This document shows, in pieces, positions 27,767-45,473 of a stretch of DNA of 64,000 nt. Position numbers and translations under genes: made by a program. Every line of letters begins with the position of its first letter. Positions within the stretch are counted from its first letter, which is position 1. The stretch comes from Spiribacter sp. 1M189. GTDB taxonomy: Bacteria > Pseudomonadota > Gammaproteobacteria > Nitrococcales > Nitrococcaceae. A model generated the notes under the pieces. That model saw only the letters and a list, made by a program, of their open reading frames with translations. It made no database searches and had not been told where the DNA came from. The stretch lies in contig NZ_JBAKFF010000001.1 in assembly GCF_040838345.1 (NCBI RefSeq), forward strand, positions 1,302,001-1,366,000, in the 5' to 3' direction.

Positions 27767-27792
27767 GAATGGCTGGGGGACCAGGATTACTC

Positions 27793-27834: not shown

Positions 27835-27897
27835 GTCGTTCTGCTCCCTCACGGTCGCAGTCGAACCTTCCAGGTTCGAACCCTGCTGACCAATTAT

Positions 27898-27930: not shown

Positions 27931-27934
27931 TGAA

Positions 27935-28008
27935 TGGCTGGGGGACCAGGATTCGAACCTGGGTTGACGGAGTCAGAGTCCGCAGTCCTACCGCTAGACG
28001 ATCCCCCA
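27935..28008 (-). tRNA. tRNA-Gln (anticodon CUG)
   Basis: A complete 74-base cloverleaf on the minus strand with encoded CCA. Acceptor TGGGGGA pairs with TCCCCCA, D-arm GTC-TAGCGGTAG-GAC, anticodon stem GCGGA/TCCGT with loop CTCTGAC (anticodon CTG, reading CAG), and T-arm around GGTTCGAATCC. It begins only 11 bases after the rpsI stop codon, so it is probably read through from the rplM-rpsI promoter and released by processing. Confidence 0.96.
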
Positions 28009-28019
28009 AAAACCGTTTT

Positions 28020-28412: not shown

Positions 28413-28430
28413 CGGTCAGTCCGCTCCGAT

Positions 28431-28859
28431 TCAGATTTCCAGCGCCTGAGGCTGCTGGGCATGGTGCTGATGTTCGCTACCGCTGTAAACCTTCAGCTTC
28501 TTGATCATCTGGCGGCCCAGCCGGTTCTTCGGCAGCATGCCCTTGACGGCATGCTCGATGGCCCGCTCCGGATGCTCCTGAATCAGCGTCTCGAAGTTCG
28601 TCGACTTCATGTTGCCGACGTAGCCGGTAAAGCGATGGTAGGTCTTCTGCTGCGCCTTGCGGCCGGTCACGGCCACCTGCTCGGCATTGACCACGACGAT
28701 GTAGTCGCCGGTGTCGACGTGCGGCGTGAAAGCCGGCTTATGCTTGCCGCGTAGGCGGAAAGCGATTTCCGAGGCGAGCCGCCCCAGGGTCTTGCCGGCG
28801 GCATCGACGACGTACCAGTCGCGCTGCACATTTTCCGCCTTGGCGCTGAAAGTCTTCAT
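28431..28859 (-). CDS. rplM: 50S ribosomal protein L13
   Basis: Early-assembling large-subunit protein, 142 residues, with typical [50 protein letters not shown] and [18 protein letters not shown]. First gene of rplM-rpsI. AGGACA-like weak binding site before the ATG, as in many ribosomal protein genes, perhaps linked to autogenous control. Confidence 0.98.
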
Positions 28860-28954: not shown

Positions 28955-30406
28955 CTAAACGGCCGCACAGAGATACTTGATCTCGAGGAAGTCATCGATG
29001 CCATAGCGCGATCCTTCGCGACCGAGCCCGGACGCCTTGACGCCGCCAAACGGCGCCTCGGCGGTGGAGATGAGACCGGTGTTCAGGCCAACGATGCCAT
29101 ATTCCAAGGCCTCGGCGACCCGCCAGCTACGCCCCAGGTCGCGGGTATAGAAGTAGGCGGCGAGACCGAATTCGGTGGCATTGGCCATGGCGATGACCTC
29201 CGTCTCGCTATGGAAACGCACCACCGGCGCGATGGGGCCGAAGGTCTCCTCAACCAGCAGCCGCGTATCCGGCTGAATATCGGCAAGCACGGTGGGTTCG
29301 AAATAAAGCCCGCCCCGCTCGCTGCGCCGCCCGCCAACGACCACGCGGGCACCCCTGCTCACCGCGTCATCGAGGTGGGCCTGAACCTTGTCCATGGCCG
29401 GCTGATTGATCAGTGGTCCAATCTGATTGGCCTCATCAAGGCCCGGGCCAACCTTCATCCCGGCGACGGCCTCACCGAGACGCTCGATGAAGGCATCATG
29501 GACACCATCCTGGACGTAGATCCGGTTCGCGCAGACACAGGTCTGCCCGCCATTGCGGTATTTGGCCATGATCGCCCCTTGTACCGCCGCCTCCAGATCC
29601 GCATCGTCGAAAACGATGAACGGCGCGTTGCCACCCAACTCCAGCGAGAGCTTGGTCACGTTCTGCGCGCATTGCCGCATGAGGATCCGGCCCACCTCGG
29701 TAGAGCCCGTGAACGTGAGCTTGCGCACCTTCGGGTTACGACAAAGCTCGCCCCCCAGCCCGGCCGCATCCGCACCGGTCACGACGTTCAGGACGCCTTC
29801 GGGCAGCCCTGCCTCACTGCCCAGCCTGGCCATGGCGGTGGCCGACAGGGGGGTCGACTCAGCGGGTCGACCGACAAAGGTGCATCCCGCTGCCAGCGCC
29901 GGCGCGACCTTGCGGGCGATCATTGCATTGGGGAAATTCCATGGGGTGATGGAGCCCACCACACCGATGGGCTGCTTGAGCACCATGATGCGTTTGTCGG
30001 GCTGATGACCCGGGATGATGTCACCATAGACGCGTCGCCCTTCCTCGGCGAACCAGCGAATGAAACTCGCGCCATAGGCGATCTCGCCACGCGCTTCGGC
30101 AATCGGTTTGCCCATCTCCGCGGTGAGTATTCGGGCCAGGTCTTCCTGATTATCCAGCAACAGGTCATGCCAGCGCATGAGGATATCGGCGCGGTCGCGG
30201 GCCGTGCGGGCTGCCCAGGCCGGGCCGGCCTCGTGGGCGGCATCAATGGCCTCGCGCATCTCCGCCACGGTCAGGTCCGCAGCATGGGCGATCACCTCGC
30301 CGGTGGCGGGGTTGGTCACGTTGGACTGGTTCTGCCCGGCAACCCACTCACCCGCGATAAATGCACGGGGCTCGAGCAGTTCAGGGCGCACAAGATCAAG
30401 CGACAT
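28955..30406 (-). CDS. succinate-semialdehyde dehydrogenase (NAD(P)+), GabD/BlcA type
   Basis: Aldehyde dehydrogenase of 483 residues oxidising succinic semialdehyde to succinate, feeding the TCA cycle. Catalytic Cys lies in GGQTCVCANR, general-base Glu in LELGGNAPF, and the cofactor region in TPWNFPNAM and FTGSTEVG. IPGHQPDKRIMVLKQPIGVVG and EAPFGGVKASGLGREGSRYGIDDFLEIKY are closest to GabD/SSADH. Last gene of the minus-strand array that starts near 44.8 kb; 38 bases after the iron-ADH gene. With that ADH and the lactonase it forms the three enzymes of a gamma-butyrolactone route. A role in GABA use is an alternative. Confidence 0.88.
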   Translation of the reverse strand: MSLDLVRPELLEPRAFIAGEWVAGQNQSNVTNPATGEVIAHAADLTVAEMREAIDAAHEAGPAWAARTARDRADILMRWHDLLLDNQEDLARILTAEMGKPIAEARGEIAYGASFIRWFAEEGRRVYGDIIPGHQPDKRIMVLKQPIGVVGSITPWNFPNAMIARKVAPALAAGCTFVGRPAESTPLSATAMARLGSEAGLPEGVLNVVTGADAAGLGGELCRNPKVRKLTFTGSTEVGRILMRQCAQNVTKLSLELGGNAPFIVFDDADLEAAVQGAIMAKYRNGGQTCVCANRIYVQDGVHDAFIERLGEAVAGMKVGPGLDEANQIGPLINQPAMDKVQAHLDDAVSRGARVVVGGRRSERGGLYFEPTVLADIQPDTRLLVEETFGPIAPVVRFHSETEVIAMANATEFGLAAYFYTRDLGRSWRVAEALEYGIVGLNTGLISTAEAPFGGVKASGLGREGSRYGIDDFLEIKYLCAAV

Positions 30407-30444: not shown

Positions 30445-31602
30445 TCAATAGGCCGCCTGGTAGATCGCCAGCGCATCGGCCTCGGTGACTTCCCGAGGGT
30501 TGTTCACCAGCAGTCGGGTCTGGTTCATCGCGTCGCTGGCCAGCTGCGGCAGCACCGACTCGGGGATATCCATCTCTCTGAGGGTCTGCTGCAGGCCGCA
30601 ACGCCGGGAGAGCGCCGCCAGCGACTCGCAGAAGGCGCTCGCGCGCTCCAAGCGGTCCAGGGACTCAAGTTCGGGGAATAGGATCGGTGCCAGCTCGGCG
30701 TAAATCCCGCCGTGCGTCTCGATATTGAAGCGCAGCACATGGGGCAGGACCAGGGCGTTGGAGAGGCCATGGGGGATATGAAAATGTCCGCCGAGCGGAT
30801 AGGCCAAGGCGTGGACGGCAGCCACCGGGGAGTTGGCGAAGGCCTGCCCGGCGAGCATCGAACCCAGCAGCATGTCAGCCCGCGCCTCGATGTCCGAGCC
30901 GTCATGGACGGCCCGCTCCAGCGCCGGCCCCATCAGGCCCAGCGCCAGCCTCGCCAGATGGCGGGAGACCGGGTTATTGTTGGGACTGGCCGAGGCATAG
31001 GCCTCGATGGCATGGACCATCGCATCGACACCAGTGGCCGCCGTGGTCGCTGCCGGCAGCCCGAGCGTGAGTTCGGGATCCAGAAGGGCGATATCCGGCA
31101 AGAGCACCGGCGAGACGACGCCCATCTTCTCCTCGCTCGCGGTGGTGACGATGGAAATCGGGGTGACCTCAGAGCCCGTCCCCGCGGTGGTTGGCACCAG
31201 CACCAGCGGCAGCCGCGGGCCTTGCGCGTTGCCAACGCCATAGCATTCGTCGAGCGGCTGGTCGCTCGCTGCCAGCAGCGCCGCCAGCTTGGCCACGTCC
31301 AGGGACGAACCGCCACCAACGCCGATGACGGCCTCGGCGCCGGCCGTTCTGGCAGCCGCGAGGGCAGCATGGATGACCTGTTCCGACGGATCCGCGGACA
31401 CCTCGGAGAACAGGGTGACCGCAACGCCAGCATGCTCGAGACTCTGACGGCCACGGTCGACGATGCCTGTGGCCATCATGCCGGGATCAGTCACCAGGAG
31501 CACGCGCTCGGCGCCCAGGCCCGAAGTCAGCACCCCGAGCCCCGAAAACTTGCCGTTGCCGAACTGGATGCTGGCGGATGTGTTGAAGATGAAAGGCGTC
31601 AT
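30445..31602 (-). CDS. iron-containing alcohol dehydrogenase (possible 4-hydroxybutyrate dehydrogenase)
   Basis: Group III metal-dependent alcohol dehydrogenase of 385 residues. NAD-binding GVGGGSSLDVAKL, the PLVLVPTTAGTGSEVTPISI motif, and metal-ligand region with Asp/His in GVDAMVHAIEAYAS, HALAYPLGGHFHIPHG are intact. Related enzymes oxidise 4-hydroxybutyrate, 1,3-propanediol or lactaldehyde. The specific call rests on the neighbours: SSADH follows by 38 bases and a lactonase is encoded upstream in the same array. In Agrobacterium BlcB has this job. Confidence 0.85.
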   Translation of the reverse strand: MTPFIFNTSASIQFGNGKFSGLGVLTSGLGAERVLLVTDPGMMATGIVDRGRQSLEHAGVAVTLFSEVSADPSEQVIHAALAAARTAGAEAVIGVGGGSSLDVAKLAALLAASDQPLDECYGVGNAQGPRLPLVLVPTTAGTGSEVTPISIVTTASEEKMGVVSPVLLPDIALLDPELTLGLPAATTAATGVDAMVHAIEAYASASPNNNPVSRHLARLALGLMGPALERAVHDGSDIEARADMLLGSMLAGQAFANSPVAAVHALAYPLGGHFHIPHGLSNALVLPHVLRFNIETHGGIYAELAPILFPELESLDRLERASAFCESLAALSRRCGLQQTLREMDIPESVLPQLASDAMNQTRLLVNNPREVTEADALAIYQAAY

Positions 31603-31632: not shown

Positions 31633-33564
31633 CTAGCCGCCGAAACTCCAGATCACCAGAAGGATTACGCCGATGGCTGCCACGGCCGCAATGATCAGGC
31701 GCCGAAGCCGCTCGGCCTCGGCGCTGACCCGGTCATGCCGCAGCGACGGTATCTCAGCTCTCGGCTCGATAGCGGGCTGCTCCGGTGAGGCCATGGCCAT
31801 GCGATAGCCGAGAAACCACACGAGCACGAGGCCGAGCAGCCAGAAGAGGACAGACCAGGCCCAGAGCGAGGGCACGCTGAGGACCCATGCCCCGGTTGCA
31901 TCGACAAAGGCGACGTTACCGAAGATCGTGCCCGGCCCGACCGCCAGAAACGCCCAGGCGAGCACGATCGACCACGCCAGCGAATTCAGCCAAGGCGGCG
32001 TGCGGGCCGCGAAGTGTCTGGCGATGAAAGCGCGGATTTCTTCGGCATTCGCCCTGCGGCCACGATGGCGGCTGACCGCTGAGATCACCATGATCGCGAC
32101 GACATTGCAGAACAGCCCCCAGCCGGCGGCATGAATCGTCCACGGATATCGACCCCAGGGCAGTTCCAGACCCAGGTAACTCAGGATGTAGATGCCGGCG
32201 GCATCGGTGAGGAATACCGCGGCGATGCCAAAGCCGAATCCCACCACCGCCGCCGGCGGCGTGATCCAGCGGAACCACAGCAGCCCGACCAGCGGCCCCA
32301 TCAACTGAGCCGACAGGGGTAGCGCCATGGCACCCAGCGCGGAGAGCGCCACCGGCGTGAGGAACGCCATCAGCAGCGAGACCACGGCGAGGATAACCAC
32401 AACAATGCGGGTGAGGTTGACGGTGGCCCGACGCGACAGCTCGCTGTGGAACCAAGGCTTGTAGAGGTGGCGCACGACTGTCTCGGCGGCAACCAGTAGG
32501 GCGAGCCCGGCGAAAAGCTGCATACCAGCGACCAGGCCGAAGACAATCCAGACGCTGAACCATGGGGACGTCGCGGACAACAGATCGGCCAGGGTGGCAC
32601 TCGCCTCTTCGCCGCGGAGCAGGCCGAACGCTCCCAGCAGCCCGCCGAGCGTGATGATCAAGGCACCGAAAAAACCGGCGAGCACCCAGGTCTGCCCCGC
32701 CGCAACGCCGGTGGCGCTGCGGCTCGAGAGCAGGATCTTGAACAGCACGGGGCTGCAGGCCACGCCCAGTACCGCCATGCTGGCGCTGAGAATCATCGCC
32801 GCACTGCCCGGGTGCTCCAGGAACGCACCACGGCCGAAGCCGGGCACGAACTGCACCACGCCGGCCACGCTGAACCATTGCGCCCCCCGCTCGCCAGCCG
32901 ACGCCGCCAGCGCATCCATCAACAACAGCGGATCGCCGACATTGGCGAGAATGACACCCCCCAGCGTGAGCGTTGCACTTACCAGTGCGACTGTCTGCAA
33001 CATCCCGAGGTAGGCCACAGCGCGAAGCCCGCCGATGACCACATAAGCGAACAGAATCAGGGTGAGCAGCGCCCCGCAGAAAAGCGGCGAGAGAGCGCCG
33101 GCGGTCATGGCCGAGAGCAGATCGGAGAGCAGCCGCAGCTGCATGCCCGCGAAGGCGACGGCGAACAGCAATGCGATCACCGCGCAGCTCACGGCCAGAA
33201 ACTCGCTGCCGTAGTAAAGCCGCAACAGCTCGATCTGCGAGGAGACACGGAAACGCTGGGCGACAAACCAGGCCCGCTTGTAGAAGAGCATGCCCGGAAT
33301 GGCGAGCAGGACACCGGCCTGCAGAGCCGCCACCGATGAGAAACCCCACCTGGCGACGGCATCTGCCGTTCCCAGCAGGAACCATACGGAGACGCTGGCC
33401 CCGGCCCCCACCAGCGCACCCATCCACGGCGCGATGGAGTGCCCCGCCGAGAACCAGGTCTCGACATCGTGGTTGGCCACCGCCGACTGACGCGCCCAGA
33501 ACAGGGCGAGCGCCATGTAGATCAGGGTGAAAAGGCCCAGCCACAGAACCATCGAATCGATCAT
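31633..33564 (-). CDS. sodium:solute symporter (SSS family)
   Basis: Inner-membrane protein of 643 residues with about 13-14 membrane segments. The start, LFTLIYMALALFWARQSAVANHDVETWFSAGHSIAPWMGALVGAGASVSVWFLLG, is the typical SSS beginning with the conserved YFxAGR-like region changed to WFSAGHS. The C-terminal part has extra segments and a charged tail. It overlaps the upstream small membrane-protein gene by four bases (ATGA). Such carriers often bring in carboxylates; a hydroxy- or keto-acid would suit the neighbouring enzymes, but this is inference. Confidence 0.85.
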   Translation of the reverse strand: MIDSMVLWLGLFTLIYMALALFWARQSAVANHDVETWFSAGHSIAPWMGALVGAGASVSVWFLLGTADAVARWGFSSVAALQAGVLLAIPGMLFYKRAWFVAQRFRVSSQIELLRLYYGSEFLAVSCAVIALLFAVAFAGMQLRLLSDLLSAMTAGALSPLFCGALLTLILFAYVVIGGLRAVAYLGMLQTVALVSATLTLGGVILANVGDPLLLMDALAASAGERGAQWFSVAGVVQFVPGFGRGAFLEHPGSAAMILSASMAVLGVACSPVLFKILLSSRSATGVAAGQTWVLAGFFGALIITLGGLLGAFGLLRGEEASATLADLLSATSPWFSVWIVFGLVAGMQLFAGLALLVAAETVVRHLYKPWFHSELSRRATVNLTRIVVVILAVVSLLMAFLTPVALSALGAMALPLSAQLMGPLVGLLWFRWITPPAAVVGFGFGIAAVFLTDAAGIYILSYLGLELPWGRYPWTIHAAGWGLFCNVVAIMVISAVSRHRGRRANAEEIRAFIARHFAARTPPWLNSLAWSIVLAWAFLAVGPGTIFGNVAFVDATGAWVLSVPSLWAWSVLFWLLGLVLVWFLGYRMAMASPEQPAIEPRAEIPSLRHDRVSAEAERLRRLIIAAVAAIGVILLVIWSFGG

Positions 33565-33998
33565 CGCGCGTCCCCGCCGGCGTCAACGTCAGTGCTGCCC
33601 TCGGGCTTGTGATGGAACGTCGAGTAGGCGCCCCGCAAGCCGTACCGGGTGACGAGATAGCTGAGGAAGCCGACCACCAGCACCGCAACCAGACTCAGAC
33701 AGGCCAGAAAGTCCCGCTCGTCGAGCCGGCCCGTGGCGAATCCGATCACCACCAGGAGCGCGACGACACCGAATGCCGCCAGCCCCAGTGCCGTTTCCCC
33801 AGCGGTATAGCCCGTCCGGTAAAGCGCGTTGATGACCATATGCGCCACGAAAGCCGCGATCACCAACAGAATCCCGGCCAGGGCGGTGCCATACTGGTTC
33901 GCCTCCAGCCCCTGCAGGAACAGCGCCAGACTGAGCATGCCCAACGCGGTCCAGGTAGAGAACACCAGTACGCTGCGCTCAATGACCGGATTCGTCAT
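33561..33998 (-). CDS. small four-helix membrane protein of unknown family
   Basis: A 145-residue protein with four hydrophobic segments (about 10-28, 38-58, 68-88 and 98-115) and a charged C-terminal tail with a YSTFHHKPEGSTDVDAGGD sequence. I do not recognise the family. It is encoded 14 bases after the flotillin gene and overlaps the symporter start by four bases. Accessory small subunits encoded just before SSS carriers are common, so it may be a partner of the symporter, or of the rhodopsin/flotillin membrane complex. Confidence 0.75.
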   Translation of the reverse strand: MTNPVIERSVLVFSTWTALGMLSLALFLQGLEANQYGTALAGILLVIAAFVAHMVINALYRTGYTAGETALGLAAFGVVALLVVIGFATGRLDERDFLACLSLVAVLVVGFLSYLVTRYGLRGAYSTFHHKPEGSTDVDAGGDAR

Positions 33999-34012: not shown

Positions 34013-35716
34013 CTACTTGTCGCGCTTCGGCTTGCCGGCCGACTTCGGCCGATCGCTGGCAGAGGTCGGCTCGGTGTAGACCACCTTGGAGAGGTCCTGC
34101 AGCGCCTCCGATCGGTGGATGTTGTCCGCCGACAACCCGATTTCGCCCAGCAGCTGATCGACGAAGGGCGCGTGCGAGCGATAGCGGAGCGCGGAATTCA
34201 CCACCTGATCGGCGAGGTTGCCCTCGCGATCCGTACCGGTGCCGGCACTGCCGGTACCCTCGCCGCTGCCCTCGCCGTCGGAGCGGCCACTGCCGCCACC
34301 GGAGAACCCGGGCAGCCCCTCGACGTGCATGATCTTGATCTCGTCGATGCGCTCCATGGGCTTGACGCTCTCGCGAATGATCGACGGCAGGTTGTCCACC
34401 AGGCGCCGATGCAGCGCGCTGCGCCGACTGGCATCCGAGCGCAGGTTCTCGGCCTCGTTGAGCTGCGTATTGCCCTCGGCTTCGACGCGGTAGCGCTCGG
34501 CCTCGGCAGCGGCCTCGATGCGGACCGCCTCGGCGCGGTCGTTGGCGGCATCCTTCTCCGCCTCGGCCAGCGTGCGCAGACGCATGGCCTCCGTTTCGAC
34601 ATCCTTGGACGTCTCGATGAGCCGGATTTCCTTGTCGCGATTGGCGATTTCCTTGTCACGGATGGTCAGCACCCGCTCCCGGGCTTCGGTCATGGCCGCC
34701 CGGGCGCGCTCGGCCTCGGACTGCGCCTCGGAGCGCTCCTGGGACTTGCGGGCAATGGTGATCTCGCGCTCCTGCTCCTCGACATCCAGCGCCTCACGGC
34801 GCTTGATCTGCATCGACTCGATCGACTTCTCGGTATCGATGCGGGCACGCTCCACCTGCTCGCGCTCGCGCAGCTTGATCTCCTCGATCTCGCGCTCGCG
34901 GGCCGCATCCTCGTGGGCGATTTCCGCCTTGCGCTGCGCTCGCTGAATGGCGATTTCCGCCTCATGGGCGCGCTGCGCAAACTCGGAGTCGCGCTTGATG
35001 TCGAGTGACTTGACCTCCGCGTCGAGATTTTTCTGGCGCACGGCCACCGCGGTGTCCTGTTCGATGTCGTTACGCTTCTTGCGACGCGCCTCGATCTGCT
35101 CGGTGAGCGCCGTCAGACCATCGGCATCGAATGTGTTGGACGGATTGAACAGGCCGATATCGGTCTGATCCAGCGAGGTGAGCGATACCGACTCGAGCTC
35201 GAGGCCGTCCTTCTCCAGGCTGTCGGCCACCTCACGGCCGACGAGCTTGTTGAACTCGTGGCGCTTTTCGTGGATGTCCTGGAGGGTCATGACGGCGGCC
35301 GCGCTGCCCATGGCATCCACGAAGCGACCCTGGATGAGTTCCTTGAGCTCCTCCGGGTGCAGGGTGCGGTTACCGAGCGAACGCGCCGCGGTCGCCACCG
35401 ACTCATCCTCGGGTCGGACCCGCACGTAGAACTCCACCGTCAGCTCGGCACGCATGCGGTCATGCGTGATCAGCGATTTCTCCCGCACCCGGCTGACCTC
35501 CAGGCGCAGGGTATTCATGTTGACTTCGGTGATGTCGTGGACGATCGGCAGCACGAAGGCGCCGCCCCCCATGATCACCTTCTCGCCTCCCAGACCGGTG
35601 CGCACGAAGGAGATGTCCTTGGTGGAGCGCCGGTACAACCAGTGCAGCAGGTAGGCACCGACCGCGATGATGATCGCGATCAGGATGATGACGGCAATGA
35701 TGTTCGCACCACTCAT
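34013..35716 (-). CDS. flotillin-family (SPFH) membrane scaffold protein
   Basis: A 567-residue flotillin of the YqiK type. One N-terminal membrane segment (residues 5-25), an SPFH domain about 35-200 (GGEKVIMGGGAFVLPIVHDITEVNMNTLRLEV), and a long charged coiled coil about 210-430 rich in Glu, Ala and Arg, including repeated AEAER units. A Gly/Ser-rich linker lies near 468-495 and a basic tail ends the protein. Flotillins assemble into rings that organise lipid microdomains. Its start overlaps the rhodopsin-like stop by four bases, so the two are translationally coupled. This pairing matches the reported flotillin-associated rhodopsin clusters. Confidence 0.92.
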   Translation of the reverse strand: MSGANIIAVIILIAIIIAVGAYLLHWLYRRSTKDISFVRTGLGGEKVIMGGGAFVLPIVHDITEVNMNTLRLEVSRVREKSLITHDRMRAELTVEFYVRVRPEDESVATAARSLGNRTLHPEELKELIQGRFVDAMGSAAAVMTLQDIHEKRHEFNKLVGREVADSLEKDGLELESVSLTSLDQTDIGLFNPSNTFDADGLTALTEQIEARRKKRNDIEQDTAVAVRQKNLDAEVKSLDIKRDSEFAQRAHEAEIAIQRAQRKAEIAHEDAAREREIEEIKLREREQVERARIDTEKSIESMQIKRREALDVEEQEREITIARKSQERSEAQSEAERARAAMTEARERVLTIRDKEIANRDKEIRLIETSKDVETEAMRLRTLAEAEKDAANDRAEAVRIEAAAEAERYRVEAEGNTQLNEAENLRSDASRRSALHRRLVDNLPSIIRESVKPMERIDEIKIMHVEGLPGFSGGGSGRSDGEGSGEGTGSAGTGTDREGNLADQVVNSALRYRSHAPFVDQLLGEIGLSADNIHRSEALQDLSKVVYTEPTSASDRPKSAGKPKRDK

Positions 35717-36444
35717 GATCTCTGTTCCTCGTTGTCGCCTGCGGCCTGCGTTTGGGAATGCCGCGTTGCCATGATGGCCGTTGCCAGGACTGCCACTCCG
35801 AAAGTCATCCGATTGAGGAAGTCAGCCACGTTGTAGGTCACGCTGATCGCTCCTCCGTCGATGAAGCTCCCGAAGCTCATGATGAAATTGCCGAGCGGAT
35901 AGATCGCCCAGCCCACCGTGACGATCAGTCGCAGCCAGAAGTAGCCGCGGCGGATCGCATCGTGGTCGGATTCGCGCACGGCGGTATCCATGCGCCCGAA
36001 AAAGAGTTCGCCCAGGATGTAGAGCCAGAAGGCGAGCCCGATGAGAAAAGCCAGCGCTGCATGCATCAGCTGGGCCTCGCCCAGGTAGCGCACGAAGACC
36101 ATCAGCACCGCGGCGACCACCAGGCGCCAGAACAGACCGATGCGCTGGCGGCCGGCGGCATTGGCGAAGAAATACAGCGCCAGCACCTGCAGCGGCATGG
36201 AAATGATCCAGCCGGCGTAGTGATAAAGAATGGGCACCGACCCCGTGGTCCAGGCCTCGCGGCCCTCGAACATTGCTCCGGCGCCCACGACGGCAGCGCA
36301 GGCGCAGAGCGTGACCGTGATCTTCCAGCGCTGGCCGACCCAGGCCGTCCCCAGCAATAGCAGGATGCTGGTGGCCACCAGTCCGAACAGGGCCGCCGAG
36401 AAGCTTGCGGCCGTCAGATCCGCCGACTCAAAGACCATCATCAC
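35713..36444 (-). CDS. proteorhodopsin-family protein lacking the retinal-binding lysine (FArhodopsin-like)
   Basis: Seven-helix protein of 243 residues. It aligns with proteorhodopsin along its length: RWKITVTL (helix B), GEAQLMHAALAFLIG (D-E), GWAIYPLG (F) and YNVADFLNRMTFG (G). Retinal-pocket residues Trp79, Trp179, Tyr182 and Pro183 are kept, and the helix G Asp is kept (Asp208). But the Schiff-base lysine position is Arg212 (codon 35811-35809, CGG). The helix C motif R-Y-x-D-W has become H75-Y-A-G78-W, losing the counterion, and the donor Glu position is Ala89. A covalent retinal and proton pumping are therefore not expected. It lies 31 bases after an ABC permease gene and overlaps the flotillin gene by four. 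Start: GTG 36444 or ATG 36441 (GGAGG upstream). Confidence 0.93.
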   Translation of the reverse strand: MMMVFESADLTAASFSAALFGLVATSILLLLGTAWVGQRWKITVTLCACAAVVGAGAMFEGREAWTTGSVPILYHYAGWIISMPLQVLALYFFANAAGRQRIGLFWRLVVAAVLMVFVRYLGEAQLMHAALAFLIGLAFWLYILGELFFGRMDTAVRESDHDAIRRGYFWLRLIVTVGWAIYPLGNFIMSFGSFIDGGAISVTYNVADFLNRMTFGVAVLATAIMATRHSQTQAAGDNEEQRS

Positions 36445-36475: not shown

Positions 36476-37852
36476 CTAGATTTGCGTTCGTATGTGGGGG
36501 GAGCGTGCGTAGAGGGCGACCATCGGGAGAATCAGCAGGCCGAAGATGAACTGCTGCCACTCGAAATTGAGGCCGATACCGATCAGGAACGACGCCAGCA
36601 CCTGGAGGACGAAGACACCGATGACGGTAAAGCCATAGCCGCCCTGCCCCCCCAGCAGCGAGGTACCACCGACCACCACGGCCGCCAGTGTCAGGAACAG
36701 ATACTGATCGCCCACGCCGATGAACCCCCCGCCCGACCAGCCGAGCAGCAGGGCACCGGTCAGCGCGGAGAAGAAACCCGAGATGGTGTAGGCCAGCACC
36801 CAGTACTTTAGCTCGGAGATCATCACCCGGGATGCCGAGACACGATTGACACCGAGCGCGTAGAGATTGCGACCGTAGACGGTGTGACGCATGCCGATCA
36901 CGAGCACCAGGGCGATCAGCGCCCAGATCACGATGACCGGCGGAATCGGGATCCCGAAGGTCTTGCCGTTCATGGCCGCGAGGTTCGACAGCCACATCGG
37001 CACCACCCCCATAACGTTGCCGCTGTAGGCACTGCCGATGGAGGTAAGGATCTGCACGGCGCCCGAGATGGCGAAACCCGTCCCGAGCGTGAGAATGAGC
37101 GCCTGTCCCTGCAGCCGGTAGCTGAGCAGCCCGTTGATCAGACCCAGGATTGCCCCGGTCAGCAGGACCAGGCACATGGCCAGCCACGGCGGCACACCCA
37201 GACCGATGAGATACAGCATGCCGACATTGGCAGAGCCGATGATGAAAGGAATCGAGAGATCAAGGCCGCCGAGCATCGCCACGAGGGTCTGCCCCACGGC
37301 CGCGATACCCAGGAACGAGGCGAACAACAGCATCGACTTGACGTTCCATAGCGAGGCGAAGCCGTCGATCTGCATGGCCCCCACCAGGAAGAGCCCCAGC
37401 AGCACCATCAGACCGATGAATGCCGAGCGGTTCTTCTCGAAGAACGGGCCGATGGTTCGGGTAATGACGATGATCGCCAGCAGGATGAGCAGCGAGAGGA
37501 TGTTCCAGACGTTCCAGAACCCCTCGATGGCGGCCGCCAGGATGAGGAAGCCAAGCAGAATGATCGCGAGCCCGATCAGGCTCGCGCGAAAGCGCAACCA
37601 CACGAGCCGGAAGGGCCCTGGCCCCTCCGCCGAGGGGCGGCGCTCGAAGCGGAACTGGGTGAGGATGAAACGCCACCCCCAGTAGAAGAGCGCCAGGGTG
37701 GCAATGGCATAGAGGATGACGAGCTGGATGTCGGTCCCCTGAACGAGGCCGTAGATCACACCCAGCAGCGTCAGCAGGCCGCCGACACACAGGCCCAGAA
37801 TACGCCCGGCCAGGCTCAGCTCGGTCGATGCCGCTTCGGACGACGGGGTCAT
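36476..37852 (-). CDS. ribose/autoinducer-type ABC importer permease 2
   Basis: Membrane subunit (458 residues) of the BPD_transp_2 family. The N-terminal 130 residues contain three extra segments before the conserved core; the core has GGLDLSIPFIIGSANV, GLINGLLSYRLQGQALILTLGTGFAISG and GVNRVSASRVMISELKYWVLAYTISG. The overlap ATGA with the other permease gene indicates coupled translation. Together with permease 1, the two-domain ATPase and the binding protein it makes a complete importer. The rhodopsin-like gene follows after 31 bases. Confidence 0.9.
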   Translation of the reverse strand: MTPSSEAASTELSLAGRILGLCVGGLLTLLGVIYGLVQGTDIQLVILYAIATLALFYWGWRFILTQFRFERRPSAEGPGPFRLVWLRFRASLIGLAIILLGFLILAAAIEGFWNVWNILSLLILLAIIVITRTIGPFFEKNRSAFIGLMVLLGLFLVGAMQIDGFASLWNVKSMLLFASFLGIAAVGQTLVAMLGGLDLSIPFIIGSANVGMLYLIGLGVPPWLAMCLVLLTGAILGLINGLLSYRLQGQALILTLGTGFAISGAVQILTSIGSAYSGNVMGVVPMWLSNLAAMNGKTFGIPIPPVIVIWALIALVLVIGMRHTVYGRNLYALGVNRVSASRVMISELKYWVLAYTISGFFSALTGALLLGWSGGGFIGVGDQYLFLTLAAVVVGGTSLLGGQGGYGFTVIGVFVLQVLASFLIGIGLNFEWQQFIFGLLILPMVALYARSPHIRTQI

Positions 37853-39288
37853 CGCGACGTCTCCTGTTCTTGGGTGGGCGGATCGGAATCGCCGCCCACA
37901 TCGCTGATGACATAGGCGACCAGCAGCATGAGGGCGGCTGCGATGGCCAGGACCACCACGTTCCAGTCACGTCGCTGTCCGGCAGTGGTGATCGTCACCC
38001 GCAGCAGCAGCGCCACTGCGGCCAGCAACAGGACGCCATGGATGAGCGGACGCGCGAATTCCCGCAGCGTGGCCGCCGCTTCGCCGCCATCCGCCACCTC
38101 CAGCGGTCCGGTCAGCACCTCGCCGGCCGGCGGGCGCTCGAGCTGCATCATCGCGGGCTGCGATGCGGACTCATCGGTGGCGACGACCGCGTCGGCCGGC
38201 GCCCCGGCATAATCGAAAGTGGCATGCATGATCACGCCGAAGACGACAACGCCAAGCACCACGAAGTAGAGCAACGGCGAGAAGCGCCGGATATAGCGCT
38301 GCAGCACCGGCAGGAGCAGCGTGACCAGCAGCGAGCCCACCAGGATCGCCCCGTAGGCCAGATCGGTGACGAAGCTCTGGACCATGCCGAAGCTGAAGGT
38401 GGCCAGCACATAGGTAATCAGATAGAGATTGATGGCGCCCAGTGCCGAGCCGAAAACGCCCGCCCGACCGCCCGCCAGCGAGGCGCCGCCAAGCACGAGG
38501 GCCGTCACCGCGATCAGCGTATAAGTCGTACCCTGGGTGGGATCGCCGGAGGAAATCAGTGCCGTGAAGGTGATCGCCGCCAGCGCCGCGAACAGGCCCG
38601 AGATCAGGTGGCCGCCGATGCGCACCAGCGCGATGCTGACACCCGAGGTGTAGGCCGCCCGCTCGTCTGAGCCCATCAGGCGGAGATGGGTGTAGAAGGC
38701 CGAGCGGGTGAAGGCCAGCCACGCCAGCGTAGCCAGCACGAGAATCACCAGCACCGGCGAGAAAATCGTGGTTCCCGCGCCCCAAGTGGACATCCACTCC
38801 GGGGCGACACCGCCCGGACGCGGCAGGATGACCAGGTTGATGCCGGAGAGCGCAAGGTAGCCGCTCAGCGCGACGATGATCGGCTGGACCCGCACGAACA
38901 CCACGATCAGCGCGAACAGCAGGTGATAGGCCATGCCCAGCGCGAAAGCAAACAGGAACAGGCTGAACGGATTGGTCAGAAAACCGGCGCCATGCGCGAC
39001 GATCACGGTGACGTTGATGAACCCGATCAGCGGGCCGATGGAAAGATCCACCGTGCCCCGTCCCGTAATCACCGAGGCCATCAGGGCATAGGTCGCAAGA
39101 ATCAGCGGCGTCGCGACGATGATCGCACTGCCGATGCCGCTTGGCGTGACCAGCGACGGTGATCGCAGCACCGCGATGATGAGCAGCAGGAAAAACAGCG
39201 AGATCGGGACGATCATGAAGGGGTTGGAACGCCCGCCGCCGCTGGTCTCCACTGCCTCGGGCAGGTTGCGCTCCGTGACCGTGGCCAT
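37849..39288 (-). CDS. ribose/autoinducer-type ABC importer permease 1
   Basis: Membrane subunit (479 residues) of the same family: GRGTVDLSIGPLIGFINVTVI, LSGYLALSGINLVILPRPGGV, LMGSDERAAYTSGVSIALVRIGGHLISGLFAALAAI and VLGGASLAGGRAGVFGSALGA. The C-terminus is extended by about 140 residues with a further two segments and a charged stretch. Its start touches the ATPase stop (TGATG). Confidence 0.9.
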   Translation of the reverse strand: MATVTERNLPEAVETSGGGRSNPFMIVPISLFFLLLIIAVLRSPSLVTPSGIGSAIIVATPLILATYALMASVITGRGTVDLSIGPLIGFINVTVIVAHGAGFLTNPFSLFLFAFALGMAYHLLFALIVVFVRVQPIIVALSGYLALSGINLVILPRPGGVAPEWMSTWGAGTTIFSPVLVILVLATLAWLAFTRSAFYTHLRLMGSDERAAYTSGVSIALVRIGGHLISGLFAALAAITFTALISSGDPTQGTTYTLIAVTALVLGGASLAGGRAGVFGSALGAINLYLITYVLATFSFGMVQSFVTDLAYGAILVGSLLVTLLLPVLQRYIRRFSPLLYFVVLGVVVFGVIMHATFDYAGAPADAVVATDESASQPAMMQLERPPAGEVLTGPLEVADGGEAAATLREFARPLIHGVLLLAAVALLLRVTITTAGQRRDWNVVVLAIAAALMLLVAYVISDVGGDSDPPTQEQETSR

Positions 39289-41075
39289 CAGCCTTCAGCC
39301 TCCGGTGTCATGGGGCGTCGCGAGAAATCGACGACCCGTACGGTGCCCTGCTCGGCGCGACGAATGATGTCGTCCGGCGTCTCCACCACCCGGATCGGCG
39401 GTACGGCAAGCGATTCGTCGTCGTACTCGACATGGCCGGTCGCCGCCGAACGCGGCGCTTCCCGCGGCGCCTCCGCCTCGACGCGGGCATGCAGCGGCGA
39501 GAGTCCATGACGACTGGCCAGACCGCCGCCGTCGGTCTGACCGAACATCGATTCCAGGATGGTTTTCGGCTCGAAGCCGCGCCCGTCGAAGGCGTCGAAC
39601 GGCGCGCCGTCGCGGAACACGATAATGCGGGTGGCGAACCCTACGAACTCCTCGATCTCCGAGGAGAGGTAGATCACCGACTTGCCAGACTCGGCGAAGG
39701 CCCGGAGCTGCCGATAGAGCTCGGTCTTGGCCCCGACATCAATGCCACGGGCGGGATCGTTGAGCACGATCAGGTCCGGGCGCATGGCAAAGCCGCGGCC
39801 GATGAGCACCTTTTGCTGGTTGCCGCCGGACAGCGAGGTGATGCGATCGCTGTGCTGACCGAACTTGATCAGCAGGTTGTCAGCCTCGCGATCGAAGATG
39901 GTGCGCAGCCCCGCCCAGTCCACAAAACCCAGCACGCCGCCGCGCCGCTTCTCGCGGTAGAGCGGCATGACCAGGTTCTCCATGATGGACAGGCGATCGA
40001 AGATCCCTTCGCGCTTGCGATCGCCGGAGACATAGACCACCCGGCTGCCGACGGCGTCGGCCAGGCGCCGGATCGGCTGCGCGACCCCTTCGCGGTCGTA
40101 GGCGAGAATCTCCCCGGCCAGCGGCGGCTGCACCCCGGAGAGTGCGCGCACGAAGTCATCCTGGCCCTGGCCATCAAGTCCGACGATGCCGATCACCTCG
40201 CCCCGGCGCACCTCCAGATCGAAGCGGCGTGCCCCCGGCCATAGCTGCAGACCGCGGGCCTGCAGCGCCAGCTCCTCGACCTCGGGCATCGGCGCCTCGT
40301 CATGGGATTCGCCGGTGCCCTGATCCTCGCCAGTCATGAGGGCCAGCAGGTTTTTCTCGGTGATCGCCTCGCGCTCGAGGACGCCGACATCGCGCCCGTC
40401 ACGCATGACCGTCGCCCGGTCGGCGATGCGCACCAGCTCGGCGATGCGGTGCGTGACGATGAGGATCGTCGTGCCGCGATCGCGTAGCTCGCGCATCTTG
40501 GTGAACAGGCGCTCGGTACTGTCGAAGTCGAGCGCCGCCGAGCTTTCATCCAGGATCAGGATGCGCGGCTCACTGAGCAGCCCGCGGGCAATGGTGATCC
40601 ACTGCTTGAGGCTCAACGGCAGTGTTCCGGCCAACGCATGGGGGTCAACCGTCTCGCCGGACAGATCCCGCATCAGCGCGGCGGCACGACGCGTCTTGTC
40701 ACGCAGGTTCAGCCTCTTGGTGAAGAGCCGGTCGGCCCCCATGAAGATGTTGTCCACCACCGAACTCTCATCGGCGACCAGCACCTCCTGGTAGACCGTC
40801 GAAATCCCGAGCGCGCGGCTCTCCGCGGGGGTCGCCGGCGTCTCGCCGAGCACCGACACCGATCCGGCATCCACGGGCAGAATGCCGGAAACCACCTTGG
40901 CAAGCGTCGACTTGCCGCAGCCATTGCCGCCCACCACCGCATGGATCTCACCGGCACGCGCCGAGAAACTCACTCCATCCAGCGCCCGGGTCGGGCCGAA
41001 GTGCTTGCGCACGTTCTGTAGTGAGATCGTCTCGCGCCTGACGGCAGGCTTCGGATTGTCAGCAGGACTCTGCAT
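39288..41075 (-). CDS. two-domain ABC importer ATPase (RbsA/XylG/MglA type)
   Basis: Energising subunit with two ABC domains. Domain 1 (about 15-240) has Walker A GGNGCGKST, a weak signature LSLKQWITIARGL and Walker B ILILDESSAALD. Domain 2 (about 275-500) has a degenerate P-loop GLDGQGQDD, a good signature LSGGNQQKVLIGRGF and LIVLNDPARGIDVGAK. This asymmetry is normal for the sugar-importer group. A C-terminal extension of about 90 residues, charged and without known domain, is unusual. Confidence 0.93.
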   Translation of the reverse strand: MQSPADNPKPAVRRETISLQNVRKHFGPTRALDGVSFSARAGEIHAVVGGNGCGKSTLAKVVSGILPVDAGSVSVLGETPATPAESRALGISTVYQEVLVADESSVVDNIFMGADRLFTKRLNLRDKTRRAAALMRDLSGETVDPHALAGTLPLSLKQWITIARGLLSEPRILILDESSAALDFDSTERLFTKMRELRDRGTTILIVTHRIAELVRIADRATVMRDGRDVGVLEREAITEKNLLALMTGEDQGTGESHDEAPMPEVEELALQARGLQLWPGARRFDLEVRRGEVIGIVGLDGQGQDDFVRALSGVQPPLAGEILAYDREGVAQPIRRLADAVGSRVVYVSGDRKREGIFDRLSIMENLVMPLYREKRRGGVLGFVDWAGLRTIFDREADNLLIKFGQHSDRITSLSGGNQQKVLIGRGFAMRPDLIVLNDPARGIDVGAKTELYRQLRAFAESGKSVIYLSSEIEEFVGFATRIIVFRDGAPFDAFDGRGFEPKTILESMFGQTDGGGLASRHGLSPLHARVEAEAPREAPRSAATGHVEYDDESLAVPPIRVVETPDDIIRRAEQGTVRVVDFSRRPMTPEAEG

Positions 41076-41134: not shown

Positions 41135-42328
41135 TCAGTCCGAGACCGGATGCGACGCCGGGTCGTACTGCGTCGGATCGGCAGGACGCAGGAAGAACTG
41201 ATCGATGTAGGCCGGATCAAGCCCCCACCGGTCCGGTCCGACGGCCAGCCACTCGGCACTCTGGACGTTGCAGTCCTCATCCATGACCTCGACGAGATCC
41301 TCGTAGGTGAATTCCACCGGATCGACGAGCACCGACTGGATCTTCGGCCCCTGGCCCTGGAGCGTGCGCATCATGATGTGCCAGATGAGCCGGATCTCGT
41401 CCTGGGGCGGCCACACCTGATAGGTGGTCGAAATGTAGTCCGGATTCTTGCGCCAGTAGCACAAGGCACCGAGCTCGCCACCGATGGAAGTCGGCACATC
41501 CTCGCGGCCGGACTGCTGCAGGGCCCGCAGCACGCCGAGTTCCGCGGCCGACTGCACCGTGATCCCATCCACACCACCGGGGTTCGTGGCGAGCCACTTC
41601 TGCACCTCTGCCTGAGCGACCTGGTCGGTCCACATACCGGCGATACTGCCCACTACCTCGATACCATCCGCTTTCGCCAGACCGGCCTTCACGCCACGGT
41701 CCTGGCTATCGGAACCGGAGGTGCCGGGAATGCCCTCGACCACCAGCACACGGCCCTCGCCATCGAGCTCATCAGCCATCCACTGACCGATCTCGAAGCC
41801 GGCCAACTGATAGTTCACCGACGAGTTCACCGAGTAGGGCGAAGTCAGGTAGCCGGTAAAGGAGAAGGTGGGCACGCCGTTGTCATAGGCGTACTTCACC
41901 GACTGATTGAGCGCGGTGGGGTTGGAGCAGCACACGAAGATGGCGTCGACGCCCTGGTCGACGAGCTGGCGCATCTGCTGGATCTGCGTCGAATCGTTCA
42001 GGTTCGACTGCGTGACGATGACCTCGTCAATCAGCCCCAGCTCCTGCCAGCGCGGAATGATCTCTTCCTGGAGCTCTCGCATGGCAGCCGCCCGCCATGT
42101 GTTACCCGCATAGGAGCTCGCATAGCCAATGGTCCACGGGGGCGGGTTCTCGGCAACGAAGTCCCGATACGCGCTGGCGCCGATCGGCTGCGATGGATCG
42201 AGCATATCCGGGTTGTAAAGACGCTCAACGACGGACGGATCCAGCTCGTCGAGTCCTTCAGCCTGGGCTGTGCCAAACGACACCATGCCGGCAAGCAGTG
42301 CAGCGGACGCTGCTTGAATGATCTTCAT
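41135..42328 (-). CDS. periplasmic binding protein of the ABC importer (type 1, sugar/autoinducer class)
   Basis: Exported solute receptor of 397 residues. Signal peptide about 1-23 (MKIIQAASAALLAGMVSFGTAQA). The type I fold is visible in WTIGYASSYAGNTWRAAAMRELQEE, QMRQLVDQGVDAIFVCCSNPTALN and GRVLVVEGIPGTSGSDSQDRGVKAGL. ATG 42328 was chosen: AGGAGGAG lies seven bases upstream; a longer frame adds MRRSRE. The long C-terminal region with conserved Trp residues differs from ribose- or xylose-binding proteins, so the ligand is probably not a simple pentose. A lactone, or a compound related to the linked hydrolases, is a reasonable guess. Confidence 0.88.
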   Translation of the reverse strand: MKIIQAASAALLAGMVSFGTAQAEGLDELDPSVVERLYNPDMLDPSQPIGASAYRDFVAENPPPWTIGYASSYAGNTWRAAAMRELQEEIIPRWQELGLIDEVIVTQSNLNDSTQIQQMRQLVDQGVDAIFVCCSNPTALNQSVKYAYDNGVPTFSFTGYLTSPYSVNSSVNYQLAGFEIGQWMADELDGEGRVLVVEGIPGTSGSDSQDRGVKAGLAKADGIEVVGSIAGMWTDQVAQAEVQKWLATNPGGVDGITVQSAAELGVLRALQQSGREDVPTSIGGELGALCYWRKNPDYISTTYQVWPPQDEIRLIWHIMMRTLQGQGPKIQSVLVDPVEFTYEDLVEVMDEDCNVQSAEWLAVGPDRWGLDPAYIDQFFLRPADPTQYDPASHPVSD

Positions 42329-42377
42329 CTCTCGACTCCTCCTCATGAGACCTGAAAACCGGGGGTTGCCCGCCGGG

Positions 42378-43304
42378 TCAGGTGTAGAAAGAAGACGGCG
42401 CTTTTCGCCAGTCTTCCCACTGCACGGGGTCGTGGCCGGTTACGACCATCGCCCCGGTCTTCTCGGCAACCCGGTGGAGCTTTGCCACCGAGTCGGCCGC
42501 ATCGGCCGAGGACACGACGAGTCCCGGCAATGCTTTGTTGTTCCAGTGATCCACGGTATAGGCGGCATCGATCGCGAGCAGGATCGGGCCGGTGTTCGGC
42601 AGAGTGACCAGAAACGACTGATGACCCGGCGAGTGGCCGGGGGTGAAGATCGTCTTGAGCACATCATCGCCAAACAGATCGAAAAAGTCGGTGGTCTCGC
42701 CGCCGAGGAACTTCCACTTCAGCCCCGGACGGTCGAAGTCCGCCCGGATATAGGCTGGCTCAGAGAACCAGTGCGGGTTGAATGCGTAGTCGTACTCGAC
42801 GCGCTGGACAATATGCTGAGCCCTTGGAAACCGCCCGATGGCGCCGGTGTGATCCAGATGCAGATGCGACTGGAGGACATAGCGGACGTCCTCGGGCTCA
42901 ACCCCGACCGAACGACACTGCTCAACGCAGTCGTCACTCAGATCCATGATCGGGTCGTAGGCATCAACCACCGCGCCCCAGTGGGCGCGCTTGTCGACGG
43001 CGACCTCAATGGCATTGCCACCATCGATCACGACGTTACCCATGGGATGCTTGAGCAGATACCAGGGCACGGGGATCTCGAAGTCCTCCTCGCCCTGGTT
43101 CATTGCGATCAGCTTTCGCTTGGTGCGCAGCGTGCCGGTCTGGAACATATACAGCTCCACTCCATCACTCGATGCCACCTTGGGTCGCACGGATTCCCGG
43201 CGTGGCGCCGGCGCAAGACTGCTGCTGGAGGAAGTGGGCGAGAGCAATGACTTGCTGTCGGTCTCGATCTGCTTGCCGTTGGCGTCGTACTGGATGATCT
43301 TCAT
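42378..43304 (-). CDS. AiiA/AttM-type metallo-beta-lactamase-fold lactonase
   Basis: Binuclear metal hydrolase of 308 residues that opens a lactone ring. The zinc motif SHLHLDHTG (HxHxDH) is intact, as are IVQRVEYDYAF, TPGHSPGHQSFLVTL, LAIDAAYT and the late GHD; all match the N-acyl-homoserine lactonase AiiA and the gamma-butyrolactonase BlcC/AttM. An N-terminal Ser-rich extension of about 45 residues precedes the domain. Encoded between the binding protein (49-base gap) and an alpha/beta-hydrolase (19-base gap). With ADH and SSADH in the array, gamma-butyrolactone is the likeliest substrate; quorum-signal hydrolysis is the alternative. Confidence 0.85.
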   Translation of the reverse strand: MKIIQYDANGKQIETDSKSLLSPTSSSSSLAPAPRRESVRPKVASSDGVELYMFQTGTLRTKRKLIAMNQGEEDFEIPVPWYLLKHPMGNVVIDGGNAIEVAVDKRAHWGAVVDAYDPIMDLSDDCVEQCRSVGVEPEDVRYVLQSHLHLDHTGAIGRFPRAQHIVQRVEYDYAFNPHWFSEPAYIRADFDRPGLKWKFLGGETTDFFDLFGDDVLKTIFTPGHSPGHQSFLVTLPNTGPILLAIDAAYTVDHWNNKALPGLVVSSADAADSVAKLHRVAEKTGAMVVTGHDPVQWEDWRKAPSSFYT

Positions 43305-43323: not shown

Positions 43324-44172
43324 TCAGGTGCGCGCCATGATCTGATTCAGGGCTTCCTTCAGGTAAACCCGGAACAGCGCGTGGTTTTCGGACATGGGGA
43401 AGTGGCCAATGTCCTCCATTTCGATATACACACCGCCGGGAATCTGGCTGGCCGTCTTTTCGCTCGCCTCAGGCGGTGTCAGATAGTCATATGTCCCGGT
43501 CATCATCACCACCGGGCAACGACTCGTGTCGATATCCTTGAGCGAATCGCGCATGTCGTGGTCTACCGAATAGAAATGCAGATCGCCGCGGAACACCTCC
43601 GAGCCCTGGGTGTAGTAGTGCCAGGTCAGCCAGCGATCCATATCGGGACTCTGCGGGGCCATGAGATCCCAGGTGCCGCTGGCGCACACCTGCGCGGCAT
43701 TGGCATGGGGATGACGCCACCAGTCCAGGTAGAAGCCCGGGGCGTGATCCGCGGCCTCCACGGGAATGACCGCACGGAAGCGATCGGGATAGTGCAGTGC
43801 CAGCTGCAGCGCCACGTTGCCGCCGAACGACGATCCCATGAAGATCGGGTTGCGCAGCTCCAGCGCATCGCAGAATGCGACGATGAATTTCATGAAGTGG
43901 TCGGCGGTGAGCCGGTATTCAGCGTTCCACCATTCCCAGTTGTGCGGCGGATCCGACTTGCCATGCCGCGCCAGGTCATAGGCGATCACGTCGTAGTTCT
44001 GGGTTATCTCGGCATCTTCTAGCAGGTCCCGCCACTGATGGTTATGGCAACCGGCCGTGTGCTGGCAGACCAGCGGGATGCCAGTGCCATTGCGCAGATA
44101 GAAGACCTTGTACTCGGAGCCGTCCACCTCGATGGTCACGTAGCGTCCGACAACCGGAGAATGCTTGGCCAT
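43324..44172 (-). CDS. alpha/beta-fold hydrolase
   Basis: Hydrolase of 282 residues with a complete catalytic triad pattern: nucleophile Ser in GSSFGGN, Asp in MMTGTYDYLTPP, His in EDIGHFPMSE, and the oxyanion region LVCQHTAGCHNHQWRDLL. It probably splits an ester or lactone. It is encoded 19 bases before the lactonase and 60 bases after the SCP2-like gene, so it is likely to work on the same compound. Substrate not deducible. Confidence 0.88.
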   Translation of the reverse strand: MAKHSPVVGRYVTIEVDGSEYKVFYLRNGTGIPLVCQHTAGCHNHQWRDLLEDAEITQNYDVIAYDLARHGKSDPPHNWEWWNAEYRLTADHFMKFIVAFCDALELRNPIFMGSSFGGNVALQLALHYPDRFRAVIPVEAADHAPGFYLDWWRHPHANAAQVCASGTWDLMAPQSPDMDRWLTWHYYTQGSEVFRGDLHFYSVDHDMRDSLKDIDTSRCPVVMMTGTYDYLTPPEASEKTASQIPGGVYIEMEDIGHFPMSENHALFRVYLKEALNQIMART

Positions 44173-44232: not shown

Positions 44233-44622
44233 TCAGACCGGCACACCGACCTTGCGAAGAAGCTCGAACTGGACGGTGAAATTGCGCAGGTTCTGCATCA
44301 GCTTGAGCTGATCGCCCTCAATGCGCAGATCACGCTGGAAGCTGCAGGACCAGATGCCGTGGTACATCGGTTTCGGGATGGGGCGGGCGAACTCCCGCCA
44401 GGTGGCCGCCGAGGCCCGGAGCGCAAAATCCCAGGGATCAAGTGGCCCCGGGTCGATGTTCATGCGATAGACCTTGCCATCGAGCATTTCGACGATGACG
44501 CCTGCCTGCTCCATATCGAACAGGTAGCGGCAGGTGAAATACTTCGCCATGGCGGCGATGGTGGGGTTGTTATCAGACGCCTCGCTGAACTTGAGGGCCC
44601 ACTCGCGGATATCCTGTGGCAT
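44233..44622 (-). CDS. SCP2-like small protein
   Basis: A 129-residue cytoplasmic protein without signal peptide. The middle part, GKVYRMNIDPGPLDPWDFALRASAATWREFARPIPKPMYHG, and the end suggest an SCP2-like lipid-binding domain as found in sterol carrier and alkyl-sulfatase tails; confidence in this is moderate. First gene of the catabolic array after the regulator and promoter region. It may bind a hydrophobic substrate and hand it to the hydrolases. Confidence 0.6.
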   Translation of the reverse strand: MPQDIREWALKFSEASDNNPTIAAMAKYFTCRYLFDMEQAGVIVEMLDGKVYRMNIDPGPLDPWDFALRASAATWREFARPIPKPMYHGIWSCSFQRDLRIEGDQLKLMQNLRNFTVQFELLRKVGVPV

Positions 44623-44858: not shown

Positions 44859-45473
44859 TTAAAAGGAAGGCGGAGTGCAGGCGCTGATCACCACACACTC
44901 TTCATCTTCGAGATTGCGGAACCGATGCGGGCTTCGACTGCTGAAGGCATAGGACTCCCAGGGCCCGAGCACCCGGCGCTCTTCTCCCACGGTGATCTCG
45001 ACATGCCCCGAGATGACAACGCCGGCCTCCTCGCCTTCATGGCGATACATGACCCGGCCGGTATCCGCGCCGGGGAGGTAGCGCTCGACCATCATCTGCA
45101 GCGTGGACTCGCTACGGCGACCGACCCGCCGGAAATCAAGCGGCCCCTCGGTTACCGGAACCAGCTCATCGGACCGGAAGAAGACCTTGCGCTCCGGGTC
45201 CTCCCCGACATCGAAGAAGTCGGTCAGCGACAGGGGCACGCCATCGAGTACGCGCTTGAGCGACGCCACCGAGGGGCTGGATTGGTTTTTTTCGATCAGC
45301 GAGATCGTCCCGTTTGTGACGCCGGAGCGCCGCGCCAGCTCACGCTGGGAGAGCCCGCGGGCTTTGCGGATCTCACGCAGGCGCCCGCCGACATCCAGTC
45401 CCGCCGGTGGTGTCGCGGCCGATTTCCCTTTCGTTTTTCGGCTTTTATCAATCGCGTCCTGACGACTGCTCAC
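44859..45473 (-). CDS. XRE-family transcriptional regulator with cupin sensor domain
   Basis: Regulator of 204 residues: a basic disordered N-terminus, an XRE helix-turn-helix at about 27-82 (LREIRKARGLSQRELARRSGVTNGTISLIEKNQSSPSVASLKRVL) and a cupin_2 sensor at about 130-200 (MYRHEGEEAGVVISGHVEITVG). This is the PuuR-like layout, often repressors of amine, amino-acid or carboxylate catabolism. Placed directly upstream of, and on the same strand as, the catabolic array, so it is its probable controller. The inducer is unknown. Confidence 0.9.
   Translation of the reverse strand: MSSRQDAIDKSRKTKGKSAATPPAGLDVGGRLREIRKARGLSQRELARRSGVTNGTISLIEKNQSSPSVASLKRVLDGVPLSLTDFFDVGEDPERKVFFRSDELVPVTEGPLDFRRVGRRSESTLQMMVERYLPGADTGRVMYRHEGEEAGVVISGHVEITVGEERRVLGPWESYAFSSRSPHRFRNLEDEECVVISACTPPSF

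Follow-up and report, generated by a model that had tools for sequence, protein, structure and literature searches.

Marine flotillin-associated rhodopsins (FArhodopsins, FARs) have been proposed as partners of an ordinary light pump, and lysine-less FArhodopsins have previously been published from freshwater metagenomes (Haro-Moreno et al. 2023, PMC10308929). Another group without the retinal lysine, the betaproteobacterial Rh-noK, is related to xanthorhodopsin and lies in tandem with a pump gene (PMC10308929). Catabolically, the described system that matters here is the Blc pathway of Agrobacterium, which converts gamma-butyrolactone to succinate (PMC3907764).

We analysed a 64,000-nucleotide stretch of the Spiribacter sp. 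1M189 genome (the window), in which a first-pass annotation, made from the sequence alone, had recognized a proteorhodopsin homologue lacking the retinal lysine and the counterion. This protein is a lysine-less flotillin-associated rhodopsin (noK-FAR). With the freshwater lysine-less FArhodopsins, compared by their published description (PMC10308929), it shares the flotillin neighbour, the missing retinal lysine (Arg is among the reported variants), and a cluster with a sodium symporter, an alpha/beta hydrolase, an iron-containing alcohol dehydrogenase and an SCP gene. It differs in that its genome is nearly complete and encodes a second, normal rhodopsin, that it is linked to a Blc-like catabolic set, that it lies on a segment most likely acquired horizontally, and that it has Roseovarius and rhizobia, not lake metagenomes, as its closest kin. 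Rh-noK has likewise lost the retinal lysine, but noK-FAR is nested among FArhodopsins and lies 660 kb from the pump gene of its genome. New here are a predicted gamma-lactone operon with an ABC importer, a sodium symporter and a BlcABC-like set; a 16.6-kb insert carrying noK-FAR and missing from the corresponding site in three same-genus relatives; lysine-less carriers that have no other rhodopsin and mostly no Blh; and an invariant Arg at a retinal-ring pocket position.

Light-handling residues and retinal pocket

35713..36444, minus strand: noK-FAR, 243 aa, with R212, G78, H75 and A89, and R119 in the retinal-ring pocket

The noK-FAR open reading frame has a GTG start and no internal stops, and its product is a seven-helix proteorhodopsin relative that matches Pfam Bac_rhodopsin above the cut-off (E 1.8e-20). 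We aligned it with green proteorhodopsin and bacteriorhodopsin and with about 50 homologues. In this alignment the retinal lysine K231 is replaced by R212 (CGG), the counterion D97 by G78 (GGC), R94 by H75 (CAC) and the proton donor E108 by A89 (GCG); the colour-tuning site L105 is occupied by Q86, and W79, W179, Y182, P183 and D208 are retained, all as the first-pass annotation had read them. R212 also falls on the lysine of PsFAR in alignments to PDB sequences, and since K41, where helix B begins, is the sole lysine of the protein, the Schiff-base place is open to no other lysine. Where a light pump carries K231/D97/E108, noK-FAR carries R/G/A, and the retinal lysine and DTT/DTL/DNI motif of marine Lys-bearing FArhodopsins are represented by R212 and G78/S82/A89. 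The cross-protomer triad of proteorhodopsin, W34-H75-D97 (PMC4374980), is gone as well: in proteorhodopsin numbering, W34 has become S16, H75 has given way to Ala or some other residue, and D97 is G78. The alignment argues strongly that noK-FAR is blind, its light-using parts having been lost.

Structurally, the AlphaFold2 model of noK-FAR (mean pLDDT 94) is best matched by PsFAR (PDB 9r21, 9r23; TM 0.92/0.95, 1.3 Å, 35% identity), which is also the best PDB sequence match; for PsFAR the comparison drew on PDB titles and sequences. Both proteins depart from proteorhodopsin at pocket positions 84 and 120, but PsFAR, unlike noK-FAR, retains its lysine (Lys213) and Asp79. The position of BR G122, which lines the retinal ring of bacteriorhodopsin, is R119 in noK-FAR, an Arg that is invariant across both large lysine-less clades. 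PsFAR carries E120 at this position; the residue is Gly in PDB 9r23, and the PDB entries document a PsFAR mutant H84V/E120G. The former active site of noK-FAR holds the polar residues H75, N186, D208 and R212.

Homologues, ancestry and retinal genes of the carriers

Bacterial and archaeal genomes were scanned and yielded 17 homologous loci (L031-L047; 48-73% identity) with Arg at the lysine site (R-type) and with the same Gly and Ala replacements as noK-FAR, or near them. Leu occupies that site in a second clade (L-type) of nine loci, eight from the scan and one (L023) from another search. Sequencing error is ruled out by the 17 further Arg loci, the first-pass annotation having already excluded a single such error from the codon, and a misplaced lysine by the single K41 in helix B. 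Among the closest noK-FAR pairs dN/dS is 0.03-0.2, the rhodopsin gene has no internal stop in any of 30 genomes searched, and the substituted residues at the former functional sites are themselves invariant among homologues. Given the 17 Arg homologues and the dN/dS values, noK-FAR is neither an error nor a relic, and on these comparisons of sequence it is kept under selection.

Evolutionarily, FArhodopsins form one branch (support 100/96) apart from pump proteorhodopsins in a tree of 50 rows, and noK-FAR is nested within that branch. Its two large lysine-less clades are sisters (100/100), beside Lys-bearing FARs, and two Roseovarius sequences are closest to the window protein (100/99). A single loss of lysine does not fit this tree, which needs two changes, because a locus from a Rhizobiales MAG (L058, 2934-3635) with Arg at the lysine site and Asp97 kept groups with the Lys-bearing FARs; this is probably a separate loss, and a monophyly constraint on all lysine-less rows is only weakly rejected (p-AU 0.043). 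The kinship with flotillin-associated rhodopsins that the first-pass annotation had suspected is thus borne out by synteny, tree and structure. Its further suggestion, descent from a working pump, can apply only to a more distant ancestor, since retinal binding or pumping has not been demonstrated for marine FArhodopsins (PMC10308929) and the immediate ancestor of noK-FAR was probably a Lys-bearing FArhodopsin, not a typical pump. The idea that lysine-less relatives are mostly freshwater proved too narrow, as they also turned up in isolates, on plasmids, and in a range of alphaproteobacteria, those of soil and sea among them. Elsewhere among the homologues, a Lys-bearing FAR on a short contig (L025/L171, G514:C362) has an in-frame TAG near its start and is followed by flotillin and hydrolase fragments.

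The lysine-less copy is the sole rhodopsin in 28/28 other carrier genomes. Blh is absent in 27 of the 28, the exception being Lichenifustis; a full-length lycopene cyclase occurs in two, where only strong matches over the full length count because PF05834 also gives short, noisy NAD-binding matches. An RPE65-family oxygenase was found in three, in one case as a fragment. The absences of rhodopsin, Blh and lycopene cyclase are less certain in MAGs than in isolates. The window genome itself encodes a normal DTE-type rhodopsin (G000:C1:677738) and blh (C1:684743), and these lie with a lycopene cyclase within about 12 kb (G000:C1:673209-685459; L001, L030, L130). A normal proteorhodopsin elsewhere in the genome, a feature reported for marine FAR genomes, is thus present in the window organism, where a link to light is possible given its normal rhodopsin and Blh; being missing in the 28 others, it is not a general feature of the clade. 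Carriers with a sole, lysine-less rhodopsin and mostly without retinal genes argue against the pump-helper proposal for the lysine-less branch.

The operon, its predicted substrate and the inserted segment

28942..45564, no strand: inserted segment, 16.6 kb, missing from the corresponding site of three aligned same-genus genomes
44859..45473, minus strand: XRE-cupin (PuuR-like) regulator
44236..44622, minus strand: SCP2-like protein of 129 aa (its Pfam match is weak, E 0.17)
43324..44172, minus strand: alpha/beta hydrolase
42378..43304, minus strand: AttM/BlcC-family lactonase, metallo-beta-lactamase fold (61% identical to A. fabrum C58 BlcC; NF045700 at 426 bits, cut-off 390)
41135..42346, minus strand: periplasmic substrate-binding protein (Peripla_BP_4, CUT2-like)
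39288..41075, minus strand: ABC ATPase, sugar/CUT2 type, 595 aa
37849..39288, minus strand: ABC permease 2 (BPD_transp_2), with a C-terminal extension
36476..37852, minus strand: ABC permease 1 (BPD_transp_2), directly upstream of the rhodopsin, with an N-terminal extension holding extra hydrophobic segments
34013..35716, minus strand: flotillin, SPFH and Flot domains, 567 aa (Pfam Flot 9.9e-34, Band_7 4.8e-15)
33561..33998, minus strand: protein of 145 aa with four hydrophobic segments and without a family match above cut-off
31633..33564, minus strand: 643-aa member of the sodium:solute symporter family (above cut-off for Pfam SSF, E 1.7e-5)
30445..31602, minus strand: iron-containing alcohol dehydrogenase (54% to BlcB, the 4-hydroxybutyrate dehydrogenase step)
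28955..30406, minus strand: succinate-semialdehyde dehydrogenase (TIGR01780 above cut-off; 58% to BlcA)

The operon runs from 44622 to 28955 in the order listed, from the SCP2-like protein to the succinate-semialdehyde dehydrogenase, with noK-FAR following permease 1 and preceding flotillin. The rhodopsin and flotillin genes overlap by 4 bp on the same strand (ATGA, 35713-35716), a point absent from the first-pass annotation, and a flotillin gene adjoins the rhodopsin in the FAR loci examined. The order binding protein-ATPase-permeases-rhodopsin-flotillin-symporter is kept in R-type and L-type loci on long enough contigs, and the order ABC importer-rhodopsin-flotillin also in one Lys-bearing locus. 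The 129-aa SCP2-like protein is conserved in 25/25 FAR loci checked, the 145-aa protein in most lysine-less FAR operons, and the symporter across FAR operons; identity of the alpha/beta hydrolase is 79-86% in R-type and Lys-bearing clusters and 42-52% in L-type ones. Putative Pelagibacterales FAR loci (L163-L166), which retain the lysine and a DTT motif, match the window cluster at 62-67% for the 129-aa SCP2-like protein, 79-80% for the hydrolase and 43-45% or more for flotillin, with a symporter match at 23-25% in L163-L165. In a Kiloniellaceae MAG (L074:10001-10690) the same ABC-importer/flotillin operon holds a Lys-bearing FAR, and the genome has no other rhodopsin and no Blh. Plasmids of Hoeflea, Martelella and Pararhizobium gei carry copies of the noK-FAR operon; two plasmids of near-equal length with equal matches, NZ_CP066788.1 and CP070278.1, are filed under Martelella lutilitoris and a Dysgonomonadaceae bacterium, and one of these taxon labels may be wrong.

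Functionally, homologues of BlcA, BlcB and BlcC occur together in the operon (58%, 54% and 61% identity to the A. fabrum C58 proteins), the lactonase and succinate-semialdehyde dehydrogenase models scoring above curated cut-offs. The operon is predicted to serve uptake and breakdown of a gamma-lactone, and its conservation offers a concrete candidate substrate class, gamma-lactones or 4-hydroxybutyrate. The BlcABC operon of Agrobacterium pAtC58 has the same three enzymes but no adjoining flotillin, rhodopsin or CUT2 importer, and it has BlcR, whereas the window has the XRE-cupin regulator and no match to an IclR/BlcR-type repressor; we therefore claim homology of the enzymes and not the presence of a Blc operon. 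The copies in Hoeflea, Martelella and Pararhizobium gei are preceded by an IclR regulator with 41-43% identity to BlcR. The three Blc-like enzymes had no matches in L-type loci within the stretch read, and Lys-bearing and L-type FAR operons are mostly without matches to the lactonase and dehydrogenases, so that the substrate may differ there. An AttM-family lactonase with 61% identity to that of the window is also found on Klebsiella pneumoniae plasmids (NZ_CP099749.1, NZ_CP099744.1).

The segment carrying this operon is flanked by an SNF2-helicase gene and tRNA-Gln (27935-28008) at one end and by a Crp gene at the other. The site is empty in three same-genus genomes (L173-L175): the match breaks off near 28941 and picks up again near 45562-45565, the relatives having about 20-57 bases in between. 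The SNF2-helicase and Crp genes lie about 2-3 kb apart in seven same-genus genomes, against 18.5 kb in the window. A search of 13 same-genus genomes found noK-FAR in none and a pump-type rhodopsin match in 10. No exact direct repeats of at least 12 bases were found between 27601-28700 and 44201-46000 at the insert borders, and the GC3 of the insert is close to that of neighbouring genes, so that base composition does not clearly point to transfer. The 16.6-kb segment was most likely gained.

Proposed function and alternatives

From a functional perspective, noK-FAR now probably does a light-independent membrane job, and we posit, with a probability of about 0.5, that it is an accessory membrane subunit of a flotillin-organised uptake system, in which it would have a docking, assembly or control role. 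What points this way in the sequences is the loss of the light-using parts, the substituted pocket site, the conserved operon, the signs of selection, and the lack of retinal genes in most carriers. A lactone or hydroxy acid would be imported by the ABC importer and the sodium symporter, and the lactonase, iron-containing alcohol dehydrogenase and succinate-semialdehyde dehydrogenase would convert it to succinate, in the way that gamma-butyrolactone is processed by BlcC, BlcB and BlcA in Agrobacterium. More tentatively, and with the odds somewhat against so specific an arrangement, noK-FAR may dock on the extra permease helices, anchor the ABC permease in a flotillin patch and control lactone uptake. 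We infer the location in a flotillin patch, the permease contact, and the gamma-lactone or 4-hydroxybutyrate substrate.

The extension of permease 1 bears on this arrangement. At E < 1e-60, permease 1 was found in 3 of 398 Pseudomonadota genomes, one being an R-type genome (G249) and the other two belonging to one genus, in which genome searches gave no rhodopsin match. The operon read in one of these two (L179) has a hydrolase, a binding protein, an ATPase, permeases and a dehydrogenase; the rhodopsin, flotillin, 145-aa protein and symporter are all absent from it, and its permease 1 has no counterpart of residues 1-138. In 25 FAR-linked loci the permease 1 alignment begins at residue 1-79, so that at least part of the extension is present in 25/25. 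With a single rhodopsin-less operon as control (two genomes of one genus, one read), this suggests that the extension accompanies the rhodopsin/flotillin module.

Next in rank is a ligand-gated sensor, whose former retinal cavity would bind a lactone, fatty acid or lipid and signal to the flotillin/transporter complex. The conserved seven-helix fold with its retained W79, W179, Y182, P183 and D208 would suit this, as would the retinal-free proteo-opsin solved with decanoate (8cnk), but no transducer gene was found in the operon and the invariant Arg in the ring pocket should shrink the cavity, and we consider such a sensor unlikely. A passive pore or co-permease for substrate or protons is in keeping with the position of the gene between permease and symporter genes and with the polar residues at the former active site; this role is a prediction, the operon already has two transport systems, and we hold it to be improbable.

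Readings that keep a link to light fare worse. That noK-FAR partners or modulates an ordinary light pump in the same cell would fit the rhodopsin and blh of the window genome, yet the 28 other lysine-less genomes have no second rhodopsin and, within the genus, pump-type matches occur in genomes without noK-FAR, which makes a partnership quite improbable. A light sensor holding retinal or carotenoid non-covalently could draw on some retained pocket aromatics, but the scarcity of Blh, lycopene cyclase and RPE65-family oxygenases among carriers, the Arg at BR G122 and the lost counterion leave it very little room. Equally little is left to a decaying pseudogene hitchhiking in the operon: all textbook functional residues are indeed lost, but the dN/dS values and the conservation of uninterrupted frames and replaced residues lead us to reject decay. 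If the accessory-subunit reading is true, noK-FAR would represent a new biochemical role of the microbial rhodopsin fold. Lysine-less members are present in growable isolates, namely Roseovarius litoreus DSM 28249, Pararhizobium gei and Mesorhizobium.
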